A DNA stretch of 64,000 nucleotides from the NCBI GenBank assembly GCA_003224055.1, contig QHYE01000025.1:1-64000 (forward strand), read 5' to 3'. Numbering within the stretch: position 1 is the first letter of the stretch; each line of letters opens with the position of its first letter. Source of the stretch: Acidobacteriota bacterium (GTDB taxonomy: Bacteria; Acidobacteriota; Terriglobia; Acidiferrales; UBA7541). Made by a program: the position numbers and the translations under genes. The notes below the pieces were generated by a model. That model did no database searches, was not told the DNA's origin, and saw nothing but the letters and a program-made list of their open reading frames with translations. Of this stretch, positions 45,662 to 54,474 are shown one piece after another.

Positions 45662-46543
45662 ATGAACTTTGTCCGTCCATCCTTGTCCCGTACACGCAGC
45701 TCTTTCGTTCTATCGGCGGCAGTCCTTGTTATTGGGCTGCTACTTCCGGGAATTCCGGTTCGCGGCCAAGATGCGCCGCAAGGGCCGATCGCGCCTCCGC
45801 CGGAGCGCCACGTCACACGCATTACCAGCGACGCGGAGCCGGAAGCGCCGCCCGCGCTGCCCGAAGCCGAAATCATCAAGCGCTTCACGGACAAAGAGGA
45901 GAACTATCTGCTGGCGCGGGCCAGCTACACCTACCGCCGAACCGTGCGCATTCAGGAATTCGGTCCGGACGGCCAGCCGTCGGGTGAATTTGTGGTGGTG
46001 ACGCAGCCGGCGCGCGATGCGGATGGAAAATATTTCGAGAAAGTTGTCGAGCGGCCGTATTCCTCCCTGCAGCATCTGTTTCTTAGGACTGAGGATATCG
46101 AAGGGTTGCAGCGCGTGCCGGCGTTTCCGGTTACCGCCGGTCAGCTTGCGAAATACAGCTTGAAATATCTCGGCAAGGAGCAAGTGGACGAAATCGATTG
46201 CTACATTTTTCAGGTGAAGCCCAAGGCGGTGGAACGCACGAAAGCGTATTTTGACGGGATTGTATGGGTGGACGCCAAGTATCTCGAGGTGGTGAAAAGC
46301 TATGGGAAGTGGGTGACGGACCAGGGTGACATGCACAGCGTTGCACAGTTGCCTTTCAGCCTGTTCGAAACGTACCGGGAAAATGTCGATGGGAAATTCT
46401 GGTTTCCGAACTACTCGCGCTCCGACGAGACTTTGAACCAGAAGGGGCTGGAAATTCCGGTTCGCATCGTTATCAAGTGGACGGATTTTAAGCCTGCTGC
46501 GGCAACCCCGGCCGCGGCTGCCGCCACGCCCGCAAAACCATAA
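45662..46543 (+). CDS. secreted LolA/outer-membrane-lipoprotein-sorting-like protein
   Basis: A 293-residue precursor with a signal peptide (SSFVLSAAVLVIGLLLPGI, ending near VRG-Q) and a proline-rich linker. A beta-rich domain follows: FTDKEENYLLARASYTYRRT, DCYIFQVKPKAVER, YFDGIVWVDAKYLEVVKSYG and KFWFPNYSRSDETL. The combination of FxVxP and WVDxxxxxVVK resembles LolA-fold carrier proteins. The tail is Ala/Pro-rich. It stands apart from the Lol-like operon at 50-54 kb; function is inferred from fold resemblance only. Confidence 0.62.
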   Translation: MNFVRPSLSRTRSSFVLSAAVLVIGLLLPGIPVRGQDAPQGPIAPPPERHVTRITSDAEPEAPPALPEAEIIKRFTDKEENYLLARASYTYRRTVRIQEFGPDGQPSGEFVVVTQPARDADGKYFEKVVERPYSSLQHLFLRTEDIEGLQRVPAFPVTAGQLAKYSLKYLGKEQVDEIDCYIFQVKPKAVERTKAYFDGIVWVDAKYLEVVKSYGKWVTDQGDMHSVAQLPFSLFETYRENVDGKFWFPNYSRSDETLNQKGLEIPVRIVIKWTDFKPAAATPAAAAATPAKP

Positions 46544-49178: not shown

Positions 49179-49273
49179 TTGCCCAGGGATATCGCCCGTT
49201 CGACTTTTCCACTTTGGGAGACCTTTCCGGATAGATTTGTTTTTCGGACTGCGTTACTTTTGGATTGTTGAAC

Positions 49274-50356
49274 ATGAGCGAAATGCAAACCAGTACGGGG
49301 CAGGGAATTTCAGGGCCCGCCGCCGCGCGTTACTGGCAAGCGACGCTAGCGCGCGATTCGAAAGCGGACGGAACGTTCGTGCTCGCGGTGCGCTCGACGC
49401 ATATTTATTGCCGGCCGTCGTGCCCGGCGCGGCGGCCGTTGCGACGGAACGTGGTTTTCTTCCACACGAGGGAAGAGGCTGAGAAGCAGGGTTACCGGGC
49501 GTGCCTGCGCTGCCGGCCGAACGAAGTTTCCGGAGCAGTTGTGTTGGTGCAGCGCGCAGTGCGCCATCTTGTGGACTCCACGGAAGAGAATGTCCGCCTT
49601 GGCGTGCTGGCCAGCACTCTCAATACCACGCAAGGGACACTGCGGCGCGCGTTCCGGCAGGTGACCGGGCTCAAACCGCGCGAGCTTGCGGAGGCGCTGC
49701 GGATCAGGAAATTCAAAGCGATGCTGCGCTCGGGCAGAAACATTACCGATGCGTTGTACGAAACGGGATACGGGTCATCGAGCCGCGTCTACGAACGAAG
49801 CAATGCGCAGCTTGGCATGACGCCGGCGACTTATCGAAAGGGAGGAAAAGGTATGAAGATCGGATACACAGTTGCAAAGTCTCCGCTGGGAAAAGTTCTG
49901 GTGGCGGCTACGGAGCGCGGCGTTTCCGCCGTTTATTTGGGGGATGCGGAGAGCGCATTGATCGCCGAATTGCGCGAGGAGTATCCGCGGGCGGAAATTG
50001 CGCCGGCGCGCGATTCCTACCAGAAATGGGTGCGAGAAATTGTGCAGCGGACCGAAGGCAAGGAGCCGCGACTGGAACTTCCGCTCGACTTGCAGGCAAC
50101 GGCGTTTCAACGGCGCGTCTGGCAGGAATTGCAGCGGATTCCCCGGGGGCGGACGCGCACGTACTCGCAGGTGGCGCGGTCTCTCGGGCAGCCAAAAGCG
50201 GTGCGAGCGGTGGCGCGAGCTTGCGCGACGAACCCGGTTTCAATCGTGGTGCCGTGCCACCGGGTGATTCGCGAAGACGGCGCGCTTGCCGGTTATCGCT
50301 GGGGCCCTTCGCGCAAGGAACAATTGCTCAGGAAAGAACGCGCGGCTGCCGAGTAG
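49274..50356 (+). CDS. ada: bifunctional Ada: methyl-phosphotriester sensor and O6-methylguanine-DNA methyltransferase
   Basis: A 360-residue DNA-alkylation repair and regulator protein. Its N-terminal zinc domain has Cys46, Cys50 (YCRPSCPARRP), Cys77 and Cys80 (ACLRCRP). An AraC-type HTH follows at about 90-190 (RIRKFKAMLRSGRNITDALY, GYGSSSRVYE), and the C-terminal OGT domain has the acceptor Cys328 in PCHRVI. It lies 95 bases downstream of the EamA gene on the same strand. In-frame TTG 49265 and ATG 49283 are alternative starts. Confidence 0.94.
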   Translation: MSEMQTSTGQGISGPAAARYWQATLARDSKADGTFVLAVRSTHIYCRPSCPARRPLRRNVVFFHTREEAEKQGYRACLRCRPNEVSGAVVLVQRAVRHLVDSTEENVRLGVLASTLNTTQGTLRRAFRQVTGLKPRELAEALRIRKFKAMLRSGRNITDALYETGYGSSSRVYERSNAQLGMTPATYRKGGKGMKIGYTVAKSPLGKVLVAATERGVSAVYLGDAESALIAELREEYPRAEIAPARDSYQKWVREIVQRTEGKEPRLELPLDLQATAFQRRVWQELQRIPRGRTRTYSQVARSLGQPKAVRAVARACATNPVSIVVPCHRVIREDGALAGYRWGPSRKEQLLRKERAAAE

Positions 50357-50408: not shown

Positions 50409-51167
50409 TTATCCGCGAGGCTTTACGCGAGTGACGCCCTTCGGCCAATCCTGCTTGAACTTGACGTCGCCGAGCGGCAGGTTTTTCATCGCATTAATGT
50501 AGTGGAACAAAAAATAGTCGCCTGAGCCCGCTTCGAAGAATTTTTGTTGAACCGGCAGCCAGGAAGCTTCGTCGACCCAAATTTGGATCTTGATGATCTG
50601 GTTGCGAATCTGATCGGACTTGGGAGTCAGTTCAAGAACGACGGTTTTCTTGTGGTCGAGTTCTTCTTCACCGACTACGGACACCAGGTAGCTCTTCCTG
50701 ATGTTGTCGCTCTTCGTACCGAACCCGAGAAGCACGTATTGATCGACCATCGAACGGTTCTTGCCGAGGTCGAATTCTTCGACGCGATTTATCTTTGGAT
50801 TGAAAACGAAAAGCGAGTCGCCGGTACGCAGAATGGTGCGCGGGTCCGGCTTGGCAATCTCGATGCGCATTTTCTCATCGCGGCGGACATAGATGTGGCC
50901 CGTTTCTATCGAGGTATCCTTCACTACCGCTGTGTATTTGATGTGTTCGATATCGGCACTAAGCGTATGGAAGTCTTGCGCGGACTTGTCCATCATTCCC
51001 AGGACGCCTTCGATGGTCCAGTTTGCGGCCGCCTGGGCCGCGCCCGTGTGAAACAGACCTGCCGCGCAGTACAAAATCACAAGCGTGAAGAGAAGAAATA
51101 GGCGGTTCAAATAGCCTCGTTCCAGGGGAAATGCGACGTCTCGTTCAGTCCTTCGGAATCCTAGCAT
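50409..51167 (-). CDS. LolA-like outer-membrane lipoprotein carrier
   Basis: A periplasmic protein of about 252 residues: signal peptide around LNRLFLLFTLVILYCAAGLF, then a LolA fold with MDKSAQDFHTLSADIEHIKY, GHIYVRRDEKMRIEIAKPD, RTGDSLFVFNPKINRVEEF, and IQIWVDEASWLPVQQKFFE. The start is uncertain: ATG 51167 is used here; TTG 51110 has GAGG at good spacing and begins exactly at the signal peptide, and a GTG at 51236 overlaps the preceding stop (TAGTG). It is the last gene of the Lol-like operon. Confidence 0.82.
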   Translation of the reverse strand: MLGFRRTERDVAFPLERGYLNRLFLLFTLVILYCAAGLFHTGAAQAAANWTIEGVLGMMDKSAQDFHTLSADIEHIKYTAVVKDTSIETGHIYVRRDEKMRIEIAKPDPRTILRTGDSLFVFNPKINRVEEFDLGKNRSMVDQYVLLGFGTKSDNIRKSYLVSVVGEEELDHKKTVVLELTPKSDQIRNQIIKIQIWVDEASWLPVQQKFFEAGSGDYFLFHYINAMKNLPLGDVKFKQDWPKGVTRVKPRG

Positions 51168-51235
51168 ACACAGAGAGATGCGCGAACTTGCAGGCGCGTT
51201 TCCTGGCAGGATTTCAATAACGTTCGCGAACGCCA

Positions 51236-51622
51236 CTAGTGGCGGATTTCCACCTGATAGGCAATTACCGTGCCCTGGTCATCATGAACGGGTTCAATCT
51301 TGGCGATGGAGAAGTTGCCATTGTGCAGCTCCGGCAACGCGTCTTGCAATGCGGTGTGGAGGCCGTTTTGCAGCGCGAGTTTTGTCGGTGGAGCAAGAAT
51401 GCGTGCATCGACGCGATACGTCTGCCGGTTTCCCTCGCGCGAAATGAGCAGCACTTGTCCCGGCGCAGCCGGCCCTCCGCTCTCCGGTTTGTCGTGGAAC
51501 CAATTCCTTGGCGTCGCCAGCACGAAAATCAAAATCAGGATAACCGCGAGGTCGTACTGCCAGGTCCCTCGTTCGTAGGACCAGAAAAGTGTCTTGGAGA
51601 GGATTTGGCCGAGGCTCGCCAT
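51236..51622 (-). CDS. small single-pass membrane protein in the Lol-like operon
   Basis: A 128-residue protein with one helix (YDLAVILILIFVLATPRNWF, about residues 23-42) and a soluble C-terminal domain (GQVLLISREGNRQTYRVDAR, FSIAKIEPVHDDQGTVIAY). I recognise no family. Its stop is 1 base from the ATPase frame boundary upstream and overlaps a possible GTG of the LolA gene downstream, so it is embedded in the operon and probably functions with it. Confidence 0.72.
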   Translation of the reverse strand: MASLGQILSKTLFWSYERGTWQYDLAVILILIFVLATPRNWFHDKPESGGPAAPGQVLLISREGNRQTYRVDARILAPPTKLALQNGLHTALQDALPELHNGNFSIAKIEPVHDDQGTVIAYQVEIRH

Positions 51623-51623
51623 G

Positions 51624-52307
51624 TCAATCCGCAGGCACTCCGTCGACGATAATTCCGTCGCGCATATGCACGACGCGGTCGAAATAAGTTGTTGCTTCAG
51701 GATTGTGAGTGATCATGACAATAGTCTGGCCAAGATCCTTATTCAATTGGCGAAGCATCTGCAGGACCACTTCCGAGTTTTTCGAATCCAGATTTCCCGT
51801 GGGCTCGTCGGCAAGCAGGATTTTCGGTTCGTTGATGATCGCCCGCGCGATAGCCACGCGCTGCTGCTCGCCGCCGGAAAGTTCGGATGGCTTGTGGTGA
51901 AGCCGTCCGGCGAGGCCAAGCATTTGCGTGACGACTTCGAAGCGATGCGGGTCAAAGCCGTCGCCATGAATGAACTGCGCGATGGCGATGTTGCCCTTTG
52001 CCGTCAGAGTAGGGAGCAGATTAAATCGCTGGAAGACGAAGCCGATCTTGTGGCGGCGCAATTTGGTGCGCGCAGCGTCACTCAAGGACGTCAAATCGTT
52101 GCCGTCCACGAGGACTTTTCCGCGGGACGCTTGCGCCAGCCCGCCGATGACATAAAGCAAGGAAGACTTTCCACAGCCCGAAGGACCCATGACCGCCACG
52201 GATTCGCCGGGCTGGACTTCGAAATTCACCCCGCGCAGGGCTGGGACATCCACCTTGCCCGCGCGGTAGAGTTTCCACAAATTTTCTGTCTTGAGTATCG
52301 GCTCCAC
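51624..52307 (-). CDS. ABC transporter ATPase, LolD/MacB-like
   Basis: A 227-residue ATPase of the lipoprotein/macrolide export class. Walker A is GPSGCGKS (41-48), Q-loop [17 protein letters not shown], signature LSGGEQQR (143-150) and Walker [13 protein letters not shown] (163-174), followed by the switch His in MITHN. The GNLD after Walker B is typical of LolD/MacB/FtsE. The permease lies upstream in the same operon; the gap of about 150 bases holds no gene. Confidence 0.92.
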
Positions 52308-52459
52308 GCTCTTTTTTCCCTGGAAAAACAGCCCTTCGGCAGGTGTATTGTAGCCGCGATTCCCATCTGTGCCTAGCCGTTCCCTTCGGTTCGCTGCAGC
52401 TGCATTTCCGTCGGTGAACTCTGCGTTCTTTGCATTCTCTGAGCTAATTTCCCCTCTCG

Positions 52460-53560
52460 CTAGTCATAAGAGAGCGCTTCCACCGCATCTTTCCGGCTGG
52501 CCATCCAAGCCGGGTAGCTTGCCCCGAAGATCGCACCGGCGAGCGCAATTCCTGCTGCGCGGAGGATCCATCCCGGCGTAATGCGAATAGACAACGTGGG
52601 GAATCCCGCGAGAAACGCTGCGCGGACGGCATAGCTCAAGCCGACGCCCGCAAGGATTCCAAACACACAGAGTGCCGCAGATTCCGTGAGCAGCGCCCGA
52701 ACGATGAAAGACTGGTCCGCGCCAAGAGACTTGAGCACGCCGATGTCCCGCGTGCGTTCAATCACCGTCGTATACATCGTCAGAAAGATAACCAACAGAC
52801 CGATCGAAATGGCCAGCGCAATCATGGCGTTGATGAATGTTTGCAGACCGGGGATATTGGTGGAGGTCATCAGCGAAAGAAAATCCTTGAGCGGGCGGAC
52901 GGTGTAGCCCGGCAGATCGTGTCGGATTTGATCCATGACGTCTTCCGTGTGTTCGGGGCGCGTGCATTTGATCAAGAAGATAGACGCCTTGTCGTGCGCA
53001 CCAACAAGGTCCTGCAAAGTAGCCAGCGGCACGAAGAGCCGCGCGCCTTTTCCGTGTTCGATAATGGCGGCGACATGCCAATCGTGATTCAGCAGATTGT
53101 AGGTGTCGCCCACTTTGATGTGCTTGGCCTTGGCAGCCCAGTCGTCCACCAACAGATCGTCCGGGCCTTCCATGTCGTGGCCCTCCAGAAACACAAAGCC
53201 ACCGGAGACGGTGCGGAAGCTGTCGCGGTCGATTCCGTAGATAACGTCCACGCCGCCCGTGGAATTGAATTGCAAGAGAGCGGGAGCGACAGCCTGGACG
53301 TATTTGAGCTCGGCAAGCTTGTTAGCGATCTTGATCGGCATGGGGGAGCCGCTGAACCCAAGAAAGATGGAAGCGGCGGGAGGCTGCAGCATGATGTCGG
53401 CGCCGATTCCTTCGATGCGCTTTGCGGTTTCCGTGAGCAAGCCGCTGGTGAGCCCCACAATGAGGACAACCAGCGCCACCTCCACGGCAACGGCCATCAC
53501 GCCGATCAGCGTACGCAGCGGACGGTGGAGCAAATTGCGGACGATCAGCTCGCCCATCAT
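52460..53560 (-). CDS. FtsX-type ABC permease (LolC/E- or MacB-like)
   Basis: A 366-residue permease with one N-terminal helix ([20 protein letters not shown]), a MacB-like periplasmic domain (about 45-235) and three C-terminal helices ([38 protein letters not shown] and [19 protein letters not shown]), the FtsX layout of type VII ABC systems. The coupling motif [12 protein letters not shown] is present. Its start overlaps the upstream lipoprotein stop by four bases (53557-53560), showing translational coupling. Confidence 0.9.
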
Positions 53561-54474
53561 GGCTGTTTGCTCTCCGCGCCATCGCTGACCCGTACAAGCT
53601 CTGTTCCCGGCGGTTGTTCGAGCTTGAAGCGTTCAGAAGGAATCTCTTCATTCAAGCTGATCTTCGTCACCTGCAGGTCCAATTTGTAGTCATCGTGCGG
53701 GCGTTCGAGGCGGATCGCCCGCGGAAACGAGGTCAGGCCGTCCGAAGGCGCCGCTTGAGTATTCTGGCTCGGGGCATTTTCTATCGGGAGCCAGTCCGCG
53801 AGATGAACGTCCGACACGAGGAGTCCTTTCGGCCCAAAAGTTTCAATACGAACAACATGGAGGTCCGCACGATCGAACCAGATTTCCCGCAAGACCTCCA
53901 ACTGATAGCCGCCGCGCAAGACGGTCAAGACATAGTAGCGCGCGTTTTCGTCGTTGAACTCACGTAGAGTTGTCGATTCTTCTTTCCTGATTTCGGGCCA
54001 GAGCAGGGCATCCAGCAGATGCTGGGGGCGGAGATTCTCGATGGGCTTGCTGCTGTTTTTCTCCACTGCCACCGTGCCGACCAGGAATTTGTGCTTTGAA
54101 GGAATGAAAACCAGGAAGGTTTCGCCGTCGCTGGCCATGTCGAAAACGGTGGTGCCAACCACCGGAGCCTGCCCAATCATGCGAATCTGGGCCGGCCGAG
54201 CAGCGAGAAGAAACGCTTTCACTTCGTGATATTCGTCGATGACGCCGCTGTACTTTGAGCCCGCCGTGGGCTTCAACTCCACCGTTGCGTTCAGCGTTTT
54301 CGTATTGTGCGCTACCAGATTGTATCGATCGAGGAGCTCTTCGCGAGTGGCATCTTGGACAACCGGCCTCTGCGTTATGACGGTGTGGCCCGTGACAACC
54401 CGCCCGCCCCCGCAGCCGCCGCAAATTGCAGCCACTGTCGTCAAAAGCACGCAGGTTGGCACACGTCGAATCAA
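53557..54474 (-). CDS. LolB-like/DUF4292-type lipoprotein
   Basis: A 305-residue protein beginning MIRRVPTCVLLTTVAAICGG, with CGGCGGG as a possible though atypical lipobox. The body is beta-rich and LolA/LolB-like: LVAHNTKTLNATVELKPTAG, KAFLLAARPAQIRMIGQAPV, VFDMASDGETFLVFIPSKHK and REIWFDRADLHVVRIETFG. As the first gene of the operon with an FtsX permease, LolD-like ATPase and LolA, it is a candidate outer-membrane acceptor. Lipidation is inferred, not shown. Confidence 0.7.
   Translation of the reverse strand: MIRRVPTCVLLTTVAAICGGCGGGRVVTGHTVITQRPVVQDATREELLDRYNLVAHNTKTLNATVELKPTAGSKYSGVIDEYHEVKAFLLAARPAQIRMIGQAPVVGTTVFDMASDGETFLVFIPSKHKFLVGTVAVEKNSSKPIENLRPQHLLDALLWPEIRKEESTTLREFNDENARYYVLTVLRGGYQLEVLREIWFDRADLHVVRIETFGPKGLLVSDVHLADWLPIENAPSQNTQAAPSDGLTSFPRAIRLERPHDDYKLDLQVTKISLNEEIPSERFKLEQPPGTELVRVSDGAESKQP

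Follow-up and report, generated by a model that had tools for sequence, protein, structure and literature searches.

The closest described relatives of the operon analysed here are the Lol system of Escherichia coli (LolCDE, LolA and LolB), the LolA2/LolB2 pair of flexirubin loci in Bacteroidota and the bacterial enzymes of inositol phospholipid synthesis. The operon lies on the reverse strand, at positions 50409-54474 of a window of 64,000 nucleotides (the whole stretch of DNA that was analysed), which is part of contig C111 in the genome of an Acidobacteriota bacterium (G000; 4.53 Mb, 136 contigs). Its five proteins are labelled LB, PM, AT, OH and LA, and PT denotes a synthase; G, L and f numbers stand for genomes, loci and families. 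The domain of the one-helix protein OH is linked to PT, a PIP-synthase-like enzyme (PIP, phosphatidylinositol phosphate). This is a new result, and it suggests a dedicated route for a particular phospholipid to the outer membrane. Searches among open-licence papers brought up no description of the operon or of the OH domain in titles or abstract openings.

Like the E. coli Lol system, the operon combines LolA and LolB folds with a type VII ATP-binding cassette (ABC) permease, a LolD-like ATPase and a predicted lipoprotein as receiver. Unlike in E. coli, these components are encoded in one operon with one permease gene and LB does not match the LolB family PF03550. Further differences are the additional one-helix protein, the link to a PIP-synthase-like enzyme and the presence of a canonical-type set alongside. 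According to passages of PMC11885536, LolA and LolB are conserved in Bacteroidota, which contradicts the view, adopted in the initial annotation, that LolB is limited to Beta- and Gammaproteobacteria. The authors suggest that LolA2/LolB2 transport flexirubin or precursors of it, or else lipoproteins encoded in the locus. That system, too, is a LolA/LolB-like pair with a specialised task, its locus serving an outer-membrane lipid or pigment (PMC11885536, in the part consulted). It offers a precedent for such pairs, and the best NCBIfam match of LA is LolA2_flexi. However, LA misses the cut-off of this family (NF053544), no flexirubin genes were recognised adjoining the operon, and the operon has its own ABC pair, OH and a link to inositol phospholipid synthesis. 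PT shares the PF01066 domain and conserved inositol-phosphate residues with bacterial PIP synthases and archaetidylinositol phosphate (AIP) synthases. It differs from them in falling just under the NCBIfam cut-offs and in carrying or pairing with the OH helix, of which there is no mention in the consulted parts of the reports on the enzymes of Renibacterium and Mycobacterium. In Bacteroides thetaiotaomicron, the inositol-lipid cluster BT_1522-BT_1526 provides another case of a PIP-synthase-type enzyme and an inositol-1-phosphate synthase family protein (MIPS) in one organism (PMC9246714, in part). The word 'transport' is absent from the main text of that paper, whereas the present synthase has export-type genes joined to it.

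The features of the window that concern the operon are as follows.

53557-54474, reverse strand: LB, predicted lipoprotein with a LolA/LolB-type fold, 305 residues, TTG start
52460-53560, reverse strand: PM, type VII ABC (FtsX/MacB_PCD) permease, 366 residues
51624-52307, reverse strand: AT, LolD-like ABC ATPase, 227 residues, GTG start
51236-51622, reverse strand: OH, one-helix protein, 128 residues, starting after a 1-bp gap behind AT
51473-51601, reverse strand: 43-residue OH motif (alignment A1, 35 rows)
50409-51236, reverse strand: LA, LolA-family periplasmic carrier
45662-46543, forward strand: weakly LolA-like predicted secreted protein (PF17131, 21.9 bits, cut-off 30)

A one-helix domain common to the operon and a predicted phospholipid synthase

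OH consists of an N-terminal conserved motif and a transmembrane helix, its one strongly hydrophobic stretch, followed by a long tail. No Pfam or NCBIfam family matched it. Residues R11, I23 and P31 of the motif are invariant, and W7, Y16, D17 and F26 are conserved in at least 90% of the rows of A1. With the OH sequence of the window as sole query, an OH homologue was found in 112 of the 247 Acidobacteriota genomes that make up our co-occurrence sample. This count is a lower bound, the single-sequence search having missed G023, G046, G006 and G030, which have OH by profile. Many of the matches lie at the C-terminus of open reading frames (ORFs) of about 250-310 residues, and those tested are CDP-alcohol phosphatidyltransferases (PF01066) of the PIP/AIP-synthase type, so the motif is common to two settings, the operon and PT. 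Fusions of the PT::OH type are present in families f24, f46, f15, f33, f62, f44 and f20, and in L105 and L126 PT and OH are separate genes with an ATGA overlap. A profile was made from 23 OH copies of genomes without LB, representing 10 families (18 copies fused to PT, three beside PT and two from fetched loci that lack PT). When run against 6,212 ORFs from genomes with LB, it found all 59 labelled OHs and no other ORF, and reversed ORFs gave 0 matches. These controls rule out a mere hydrophobic-helix effect. By profile comparison, the OH of the operon and the C-terminal domain of PT are thus the same, homologous domain. The suggestion in the initial annotation that the one-helix protein might be a new component is supported.

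In one genome (L138), OH is fused to the N-terminus of LA. The C-termini of CDP-alcohol phosphotransferases are taken as cytosolic and a fused LolA domain must be periplasmic, which suggests an N-in, C-out topology for OH, with a tail that would be periplasmic. The 59 copies from LB genomes have tails with a median length of 66 residues after the helix, the L138 fusion having the longest (217), versus 22 residues in 24 copies from non-LB genomes; these copies come from related genomes and are not independent. The single long tail of the latter set (76 residues) belongs to G175 (L073), which has LA and PM. Outside the phylum sample, 84,980 species genomes were scanned with the OH motif; this gave 145 confirmed matches, the best 80 of which constitute the named loci. 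Among these 80, the closest relatives are 'gp2' Acidobacteria and Candidatus Acidiferrum bins. In the phylum genomes and the best 80 matches, OH was seen only in Acidobacteriota, two of the 80 having other titles. The contig of L199, titled Betaproteobacteria (BOG_genome_mining.134), carries a gp2-type operon with an OH motif 79% identical and is probably from a mislabelled bin.

Co-occurrence with genes of predicted inositol phospholipid synthesis

The PT of G000 is PIP/AIP-synthase-like, with 170.5 bits to NF040950 (cut-off 180) and 137 bits to NF045883 (cut-off 170), below both NCBIfam cut-offs. Its nearest PDB entry is 6h53, a phosphatidylinositol (PI) synthase (91 bits). The CDP-alcohol signature DxxDGxxA..GxxxDxxxD is invariant in the 15-row alignment A4 except for the R of 'AR'. 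In the consulted part of PMC4634129, residues S132, R155, R195 and K135 of PIP synthase are assigned to inositol-phosphate binding. The PT equivalents of the first three, mapped by eye via the 6h53 alignment, are invariant in A4, and K135 is replaced by R.

PT was counted in 121 genomes (138 genomes gave a match at E<=1e-30, of which 17 with lower scores, 112.6-171.1 bits, were left out) and LB in 92 of the 247 (110 matched, 18 with only weak matches of <=31.6 bits removed). OH and PT occur together in 110 genomes, OH without PT in two (G020, G063), PT without OH in 11 and neither in 124. In the case of LB, 90 genomes have both it and PT, 31 have PT only and the same G020 and G063 have LB only. 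Of the 112 genomes with OH, 107 also have MIPS (PF07994; 130 genomes over the cut-off among 132 matched), as do 88 of the 92 with LB, G000 included. OH and PT lie within 5 kb of each other in 41 of the 110 genomes. LB and PT share a contig in 50 of the 90 and are within 10 kb in 37 of them, representing 8 families. Assuming a single PT in a genome of a few Mb, we estimate that well under one case of LB-PT proximity would be expected by chance, the observed cases being non-independent owing to the relatedness of the genomes. The PT gene of G000 is set in a lipid neighbourhood (L183:1907-10535, contig C40) that includes a diacylglycerol-kinase-type gene (PF00781), an acyltransferase gene (PF01553) and, by eye, acyl-AMP-ligase-like genes. 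For Occallatibacter bavaricus, small amounts of PI are reported (PMC12935467, in the part consulted). A 'phosphohexose' is given as a major lipid of Acidisarcina in the consulted part of PMC6252331; that it could be PI is speculation.

Conservation of the gene set

All five ORFs were confirmed in the order and on the strand proposed in the initial annotation. Its suggestion to survey neighbourhoods was followed in 101 fetched loci, a chosen set with about one to several loci per family around OH matches, plus LB matches and the window region; loci with OH alone are included. All five genes keep this order on a single strand in 27 loci out of the 101 (window included), across 17 families, and the full order is present in 51 of the 80 named loci. 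LA follows OH within 1.5 kb in 57 fetched loci from 24 families, and the OH-LA pair is present in 65 of the named loci. The gene set is thus kept together, and this conservation rules out the operon as a product of chance or artefact. In family f2 the set is split, with LB, accompanied or not by PM, in one place and OH-LA in another. OH-LA pairs without adjoining AT, PM or LB are found in f2 and in loci with Bryobacterales-type titles, e.g. L251, L252 and L257. At the threshold used for LA (>=101 bits; 113 of the 166 genomes matched at E<=1e-18), G030 is the only one of the 92 LB genomes without LA, and its LA is the fused form.

A PM-type gene is found at E<=1e-60 in 93 of the 247 genomes, including all 92 with LB. 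PM is not beside LB in f20 and in some other families (see below). Loss of PM is ruled out in such cases, since every LB genome has a PM-type gene elsewhere; some of these may be paralogues, as G000 has two (on C111 and C94). The second one of G000 (C94:4868-5947, L266; 414 bits) has no other operon genes adjoining it.

The lipoprotein, the carrier and the ABC pair

The initial annotation described LB as LolB-like and called for a structure prediction. LB has no Pfam match at E<=1 and no NCBIfam family, its one 12-bit NCBIfam row being meaningless. A search of G000 with PF03550 at E<=1 gave two weak matches elsewhere and none at LB, and membership of LB in that family is ruled out. The fold, by contrast, is supported. 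The AlphaFold2 model, built from 43 sequences (the window and named loci; predicted local distance difference test score, pLDDT, 83.7), aligns with Porphyromonas gingivalis LolB (9tpm; VIA Z 17.5, 221 residues, 3.6 Å), P. gingivalis LolA3 (VIA Z 15.8) and E. coli LolB (1iwm; VIA Z 13.9, 173 residues, 3.1 Å). The top Foldseek matches are LolA3 and proteins of the LolA superfamily. In addition, 196 columns of the LB profile align to the LA profile with a probability of 96.8 (hhalign; E 2.7e-10). A cysteine at the lipobox-like site (Cys21) is present in all 27 phylum-wide rows and in 42 of the 43 in alignment A5. The LolB-like description stands for the predicted fold and falls for family membership. 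A hydrophobic loop at residues 104-106 (P-V-V) is LolB-like by eye. Its conserved form, R-I-x-x-x-x-x-P-[VL]-[VTI], resembles, again by eye, the E. coli LolB segment RLLLTNPLGST, which holds Leu68 of the hydrophobic loop of LolB. In the same kind of comparison GQAPVVGTT and QNPLTRTT of LB can be set against TNPLGST of E. coli; with hhalign, LB gave no significant match to the one LolB sequence of E. coli.

LA probably starts at the TTG at 51110, which gives 233 residues with a signal peptide (by eye). It matches LolA (PF03548) with 37.2 bits, above the cut-off of 23.6, and its profile A6 matches the LolA structures 2w7q and 8orn, in agreement with the LolA-like carrier of the initial annotation. 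The score to NF053544 (LolA2_flexi) is 43.1 bits, below the cut-off of 125. The second LolA-like gene proposed at 45662 retains a weak match to LolA_like, below the cut-off as listed above. This gene clustered with no gene of the fetched loci and was rejected as a part of the system.

The genes of PM and LB overlap by ATGA, and PM matches MacB_PCD (PF12704, 46.2 bits) and FtsX (PF02687, 59.9 bits), as expected for the coupled FtsX permease of the initial annotation. With 43.9 bits to TIGR02212 (lolCE), far under the cut-off of 362.45, PM is not placed in the LolC/LolE-type family. Its model (pLDDT 78.9, predicted template modelling score 0.59) gives VIA Z of 24.3 to LolE, 23.2 to 5xu1, 22.8 to HrtB and 21.8 to MacB, values that do not discriminate between them. 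As modelled, PM has the fold of a type VII ABC permease of the LolE/MacB/HrtB type. LolD (TIGR02211) is the best NCBIfam match of AT, in line with the predicted LolD-like ATPase, at 222.4 bits, below the cut-off of 307.75.

Possible function of the operon

Apart from the operon, G000 has a canonical-type LolA on contig C69 and, on C5, a LolCE-like permease (310 bits, under the cut-off of 362), behind which the contig ends in a truncated LolD-like frame. The operon is thus an additional line, distinct from the housekeeping Lol system as the initial annotation had proposed. Of the two kinds of cargo considered there, lipoprotein or lipid, the latter fits the recurrent genes, namely the PIP-synthase-like enzyme, MlaE-MlaF-MlaD and VTT/DedA, together with the co-occurring MIPS; no link to lipoprotein cargo was recognised among them. 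The range of cargo can be narrowed on this basis, the nameable gene links that recur being ones to the synthesis and transport of phospholipids. The interpretation we favour, with slightly less than an even chance of being right, is that the operon is a specialised Lol-like line for a lipid, most likely the PT-made inositol phospholipid or a derivative of it. With the topology of OH read from the fusions, the physical contacts, substrate and outward direction of such a line would be as follows. PT would make the lipid in the inner membrane, which OH would cross once, with its N-terminal motif at PT in the cytosol and its tail at LA in the periplasm. PM, as a dimer, and AT would extract the lipid using ATP, LA would carry it over the periplasm and LB, as a LolB-like lipoprotein, would receive it at the outer membrane. 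More tentatively, OH could be a transmembrane coupler that docks the PIP synthase inside and the LolA-type carrier outside, such that the newly made lipid is passed from enzyme to exporter and on to the outer membrane; this would be a dedicated outward route for phospholipid, built from ABC, LolA and LolB-like parts. It has long been asked by what route phospholipids arrive at the outer membrane. A carrier pair of the LolA/LolB type for a phospholipid would, if true, be a new kind of answer, coming from a large and little-studied phylum. OH provides a concrete handle on it, being part of a fusion with the synthase in certain lineages and, in others, adjoining the carrier or joined to it by fusion, and two families without a Pfam entry, LB and OH, are given a place and a test.

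Several observations weigh against export of an inositol phospholipid. PM, AT, LA and LB are all related to lipoprotein-trafficking proteins. The PT gene of G000 is on C40, away from the operon contig, and of the 37 genomes (out of 90) with PT near LB, 17 belong to f2, where other genes lie between. MIPS and PT do not fully coincide, with 19 MIPS genomes lacking a strong PT and 10 PT genomes lacking MIPS. PT and OH are present in 26 genomes without LB, PM or LA at >=101 bits, so that in these OH presumably has a function for PT that does not involve the exporter. LB-AT-OH-LA occurs without adjoining PM in 13 more fetched loci (f9, f21, f29, f32 and f39), and the OH::LA fusion is found in a single genome. 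As to the lipids themselves, the species description in PMC12935467 (in the part consulted) lists a glycophospholipid, not PI. Although the full operon is present in L246, titled Chloracidobacterium sp., PI is not named among the polar-lipid entries for Chloracidobacterium in the consulted part of PMC12816986.

A doubtful, though still appreciable, alternative is that a subset of lipoproteins has a second Lol system of its own and that the link to PT reflects co-regulation or membrane assembly and not the substrate. This would account for the LolB and LolA folds or family matches of LB and LA, the P-[VL]-x loop of LB, seen by eye, the LolD match of AT and LolE as top structural match of PM. 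However, a canonical-type LolA and LolCE-LolD are already available elsewhere in G000, the recurrent nameable neighbours are lipid enzymes and MlaEFD with no obvious lipoprotein cargo, and PM is both distant from lolCE in its bit score and structurally about equally close to HrtB and MacB. The Mla link could also mean that the Mla cluster and the Lol-like line serve lipid asymmetry in the retrograde direction, returning or recycling lipid whose head groups PT remakes. MlaE-MlaF-MlaD(MCE)-PT does adjoin the operon in members of f20, f29, f50, f53, f59 and f61; yet an MCE gene is present in only 14 fetched loci (6 families) and, among the 80 named loci, in L217 alone, and the known flow of LolCDE-LolA-LolB is outward, which together make this unlikely.

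Slightly less likely again is a sensor, in which LA, like the LolA-fold RseB/MucB, would sense periplasmic or outer-membrane lipid and OH would relay the signal to set PT activity, with the ABC pair serving the sensor. The isolated OH-LA pairs of f2, L251, L252 and L257, the pairing of OH with PT alone in other lineages and the score of LA to MucB_RseB (22.1 bits, just below the cut-off of 22.3) are consistent with it. It leaves unexplained why LB (92 of 247 genomes) and a dedicated permease (PM, 93) co-occur near-perfectly with LA. We regard as very improbable a membrane-spanning (iso-diabolic-type) or ether lipid as cargo in place of PI. A PM-type gene does stand beside a Tes radical SAM gene in L276, with PT on the other side, and in L284, but such a neighbour occurs in only two of 20 fetched PM neighbourhoods, and neither of the two PM genes of G095 (L284) lies in its operon.

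Neighbouring genes

In members of f29, f50, f53, f59 and f61, MlaE-MlaF-MlaD(MCE)-PT converges on LA-OH-AT-PM-LB, and in f20 MCE, PT::OH and LA run in the same direction, with an overlap of 4 bp between PT::OH and the LA ORF. MlaD and MlaE were identified by Pfam for L125, and MlaF was named from its sequence and position. In several families, LB is preceded by a VTT/DedA gene. The Tes (tetraether lipid synthase) gene of L276:6208-9603 (G006:C60, a 2.1 Mb genome) matches NF045702 with 619 bits (cut-off 450) and has as neighbours PT and a PM-type permease gene on the opposite strand. L284:3939-9999 (G095:C12, f21) contains a Tes-like radical SAM gene (321 bits, below the cut-off), a PM-type gene and a shorter MIPS-like gene. 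The latter is the second of its kind in G095, with a partial PF07994, and its product (L284:8812-9999) matched no NCBIfam family at 1e-8. PM-type and MIPS-like genes are also close together in L283 and L285. Among the recognised neighbours none points to lipoprotein cargo, many of the neighbours being without annotation. MltG, RuvX, GreA, SerRS and UvrC (names by eye) are also present, and these cell-wall and translation neighbours look like ordinary synteny. A 340-residue radical SAM protein is encoded after LA in the same direction in L085:4777-5799 and other loci of f21, f50 and f71; its cluster, C13, comprises 13 loci from three families. In the window itself, the operon is adjoined by a gene at 49265-50356 on the forward strand for what appears by eye to be an Ada-type protein with metal-binding, AraC and methyltransferase parts.

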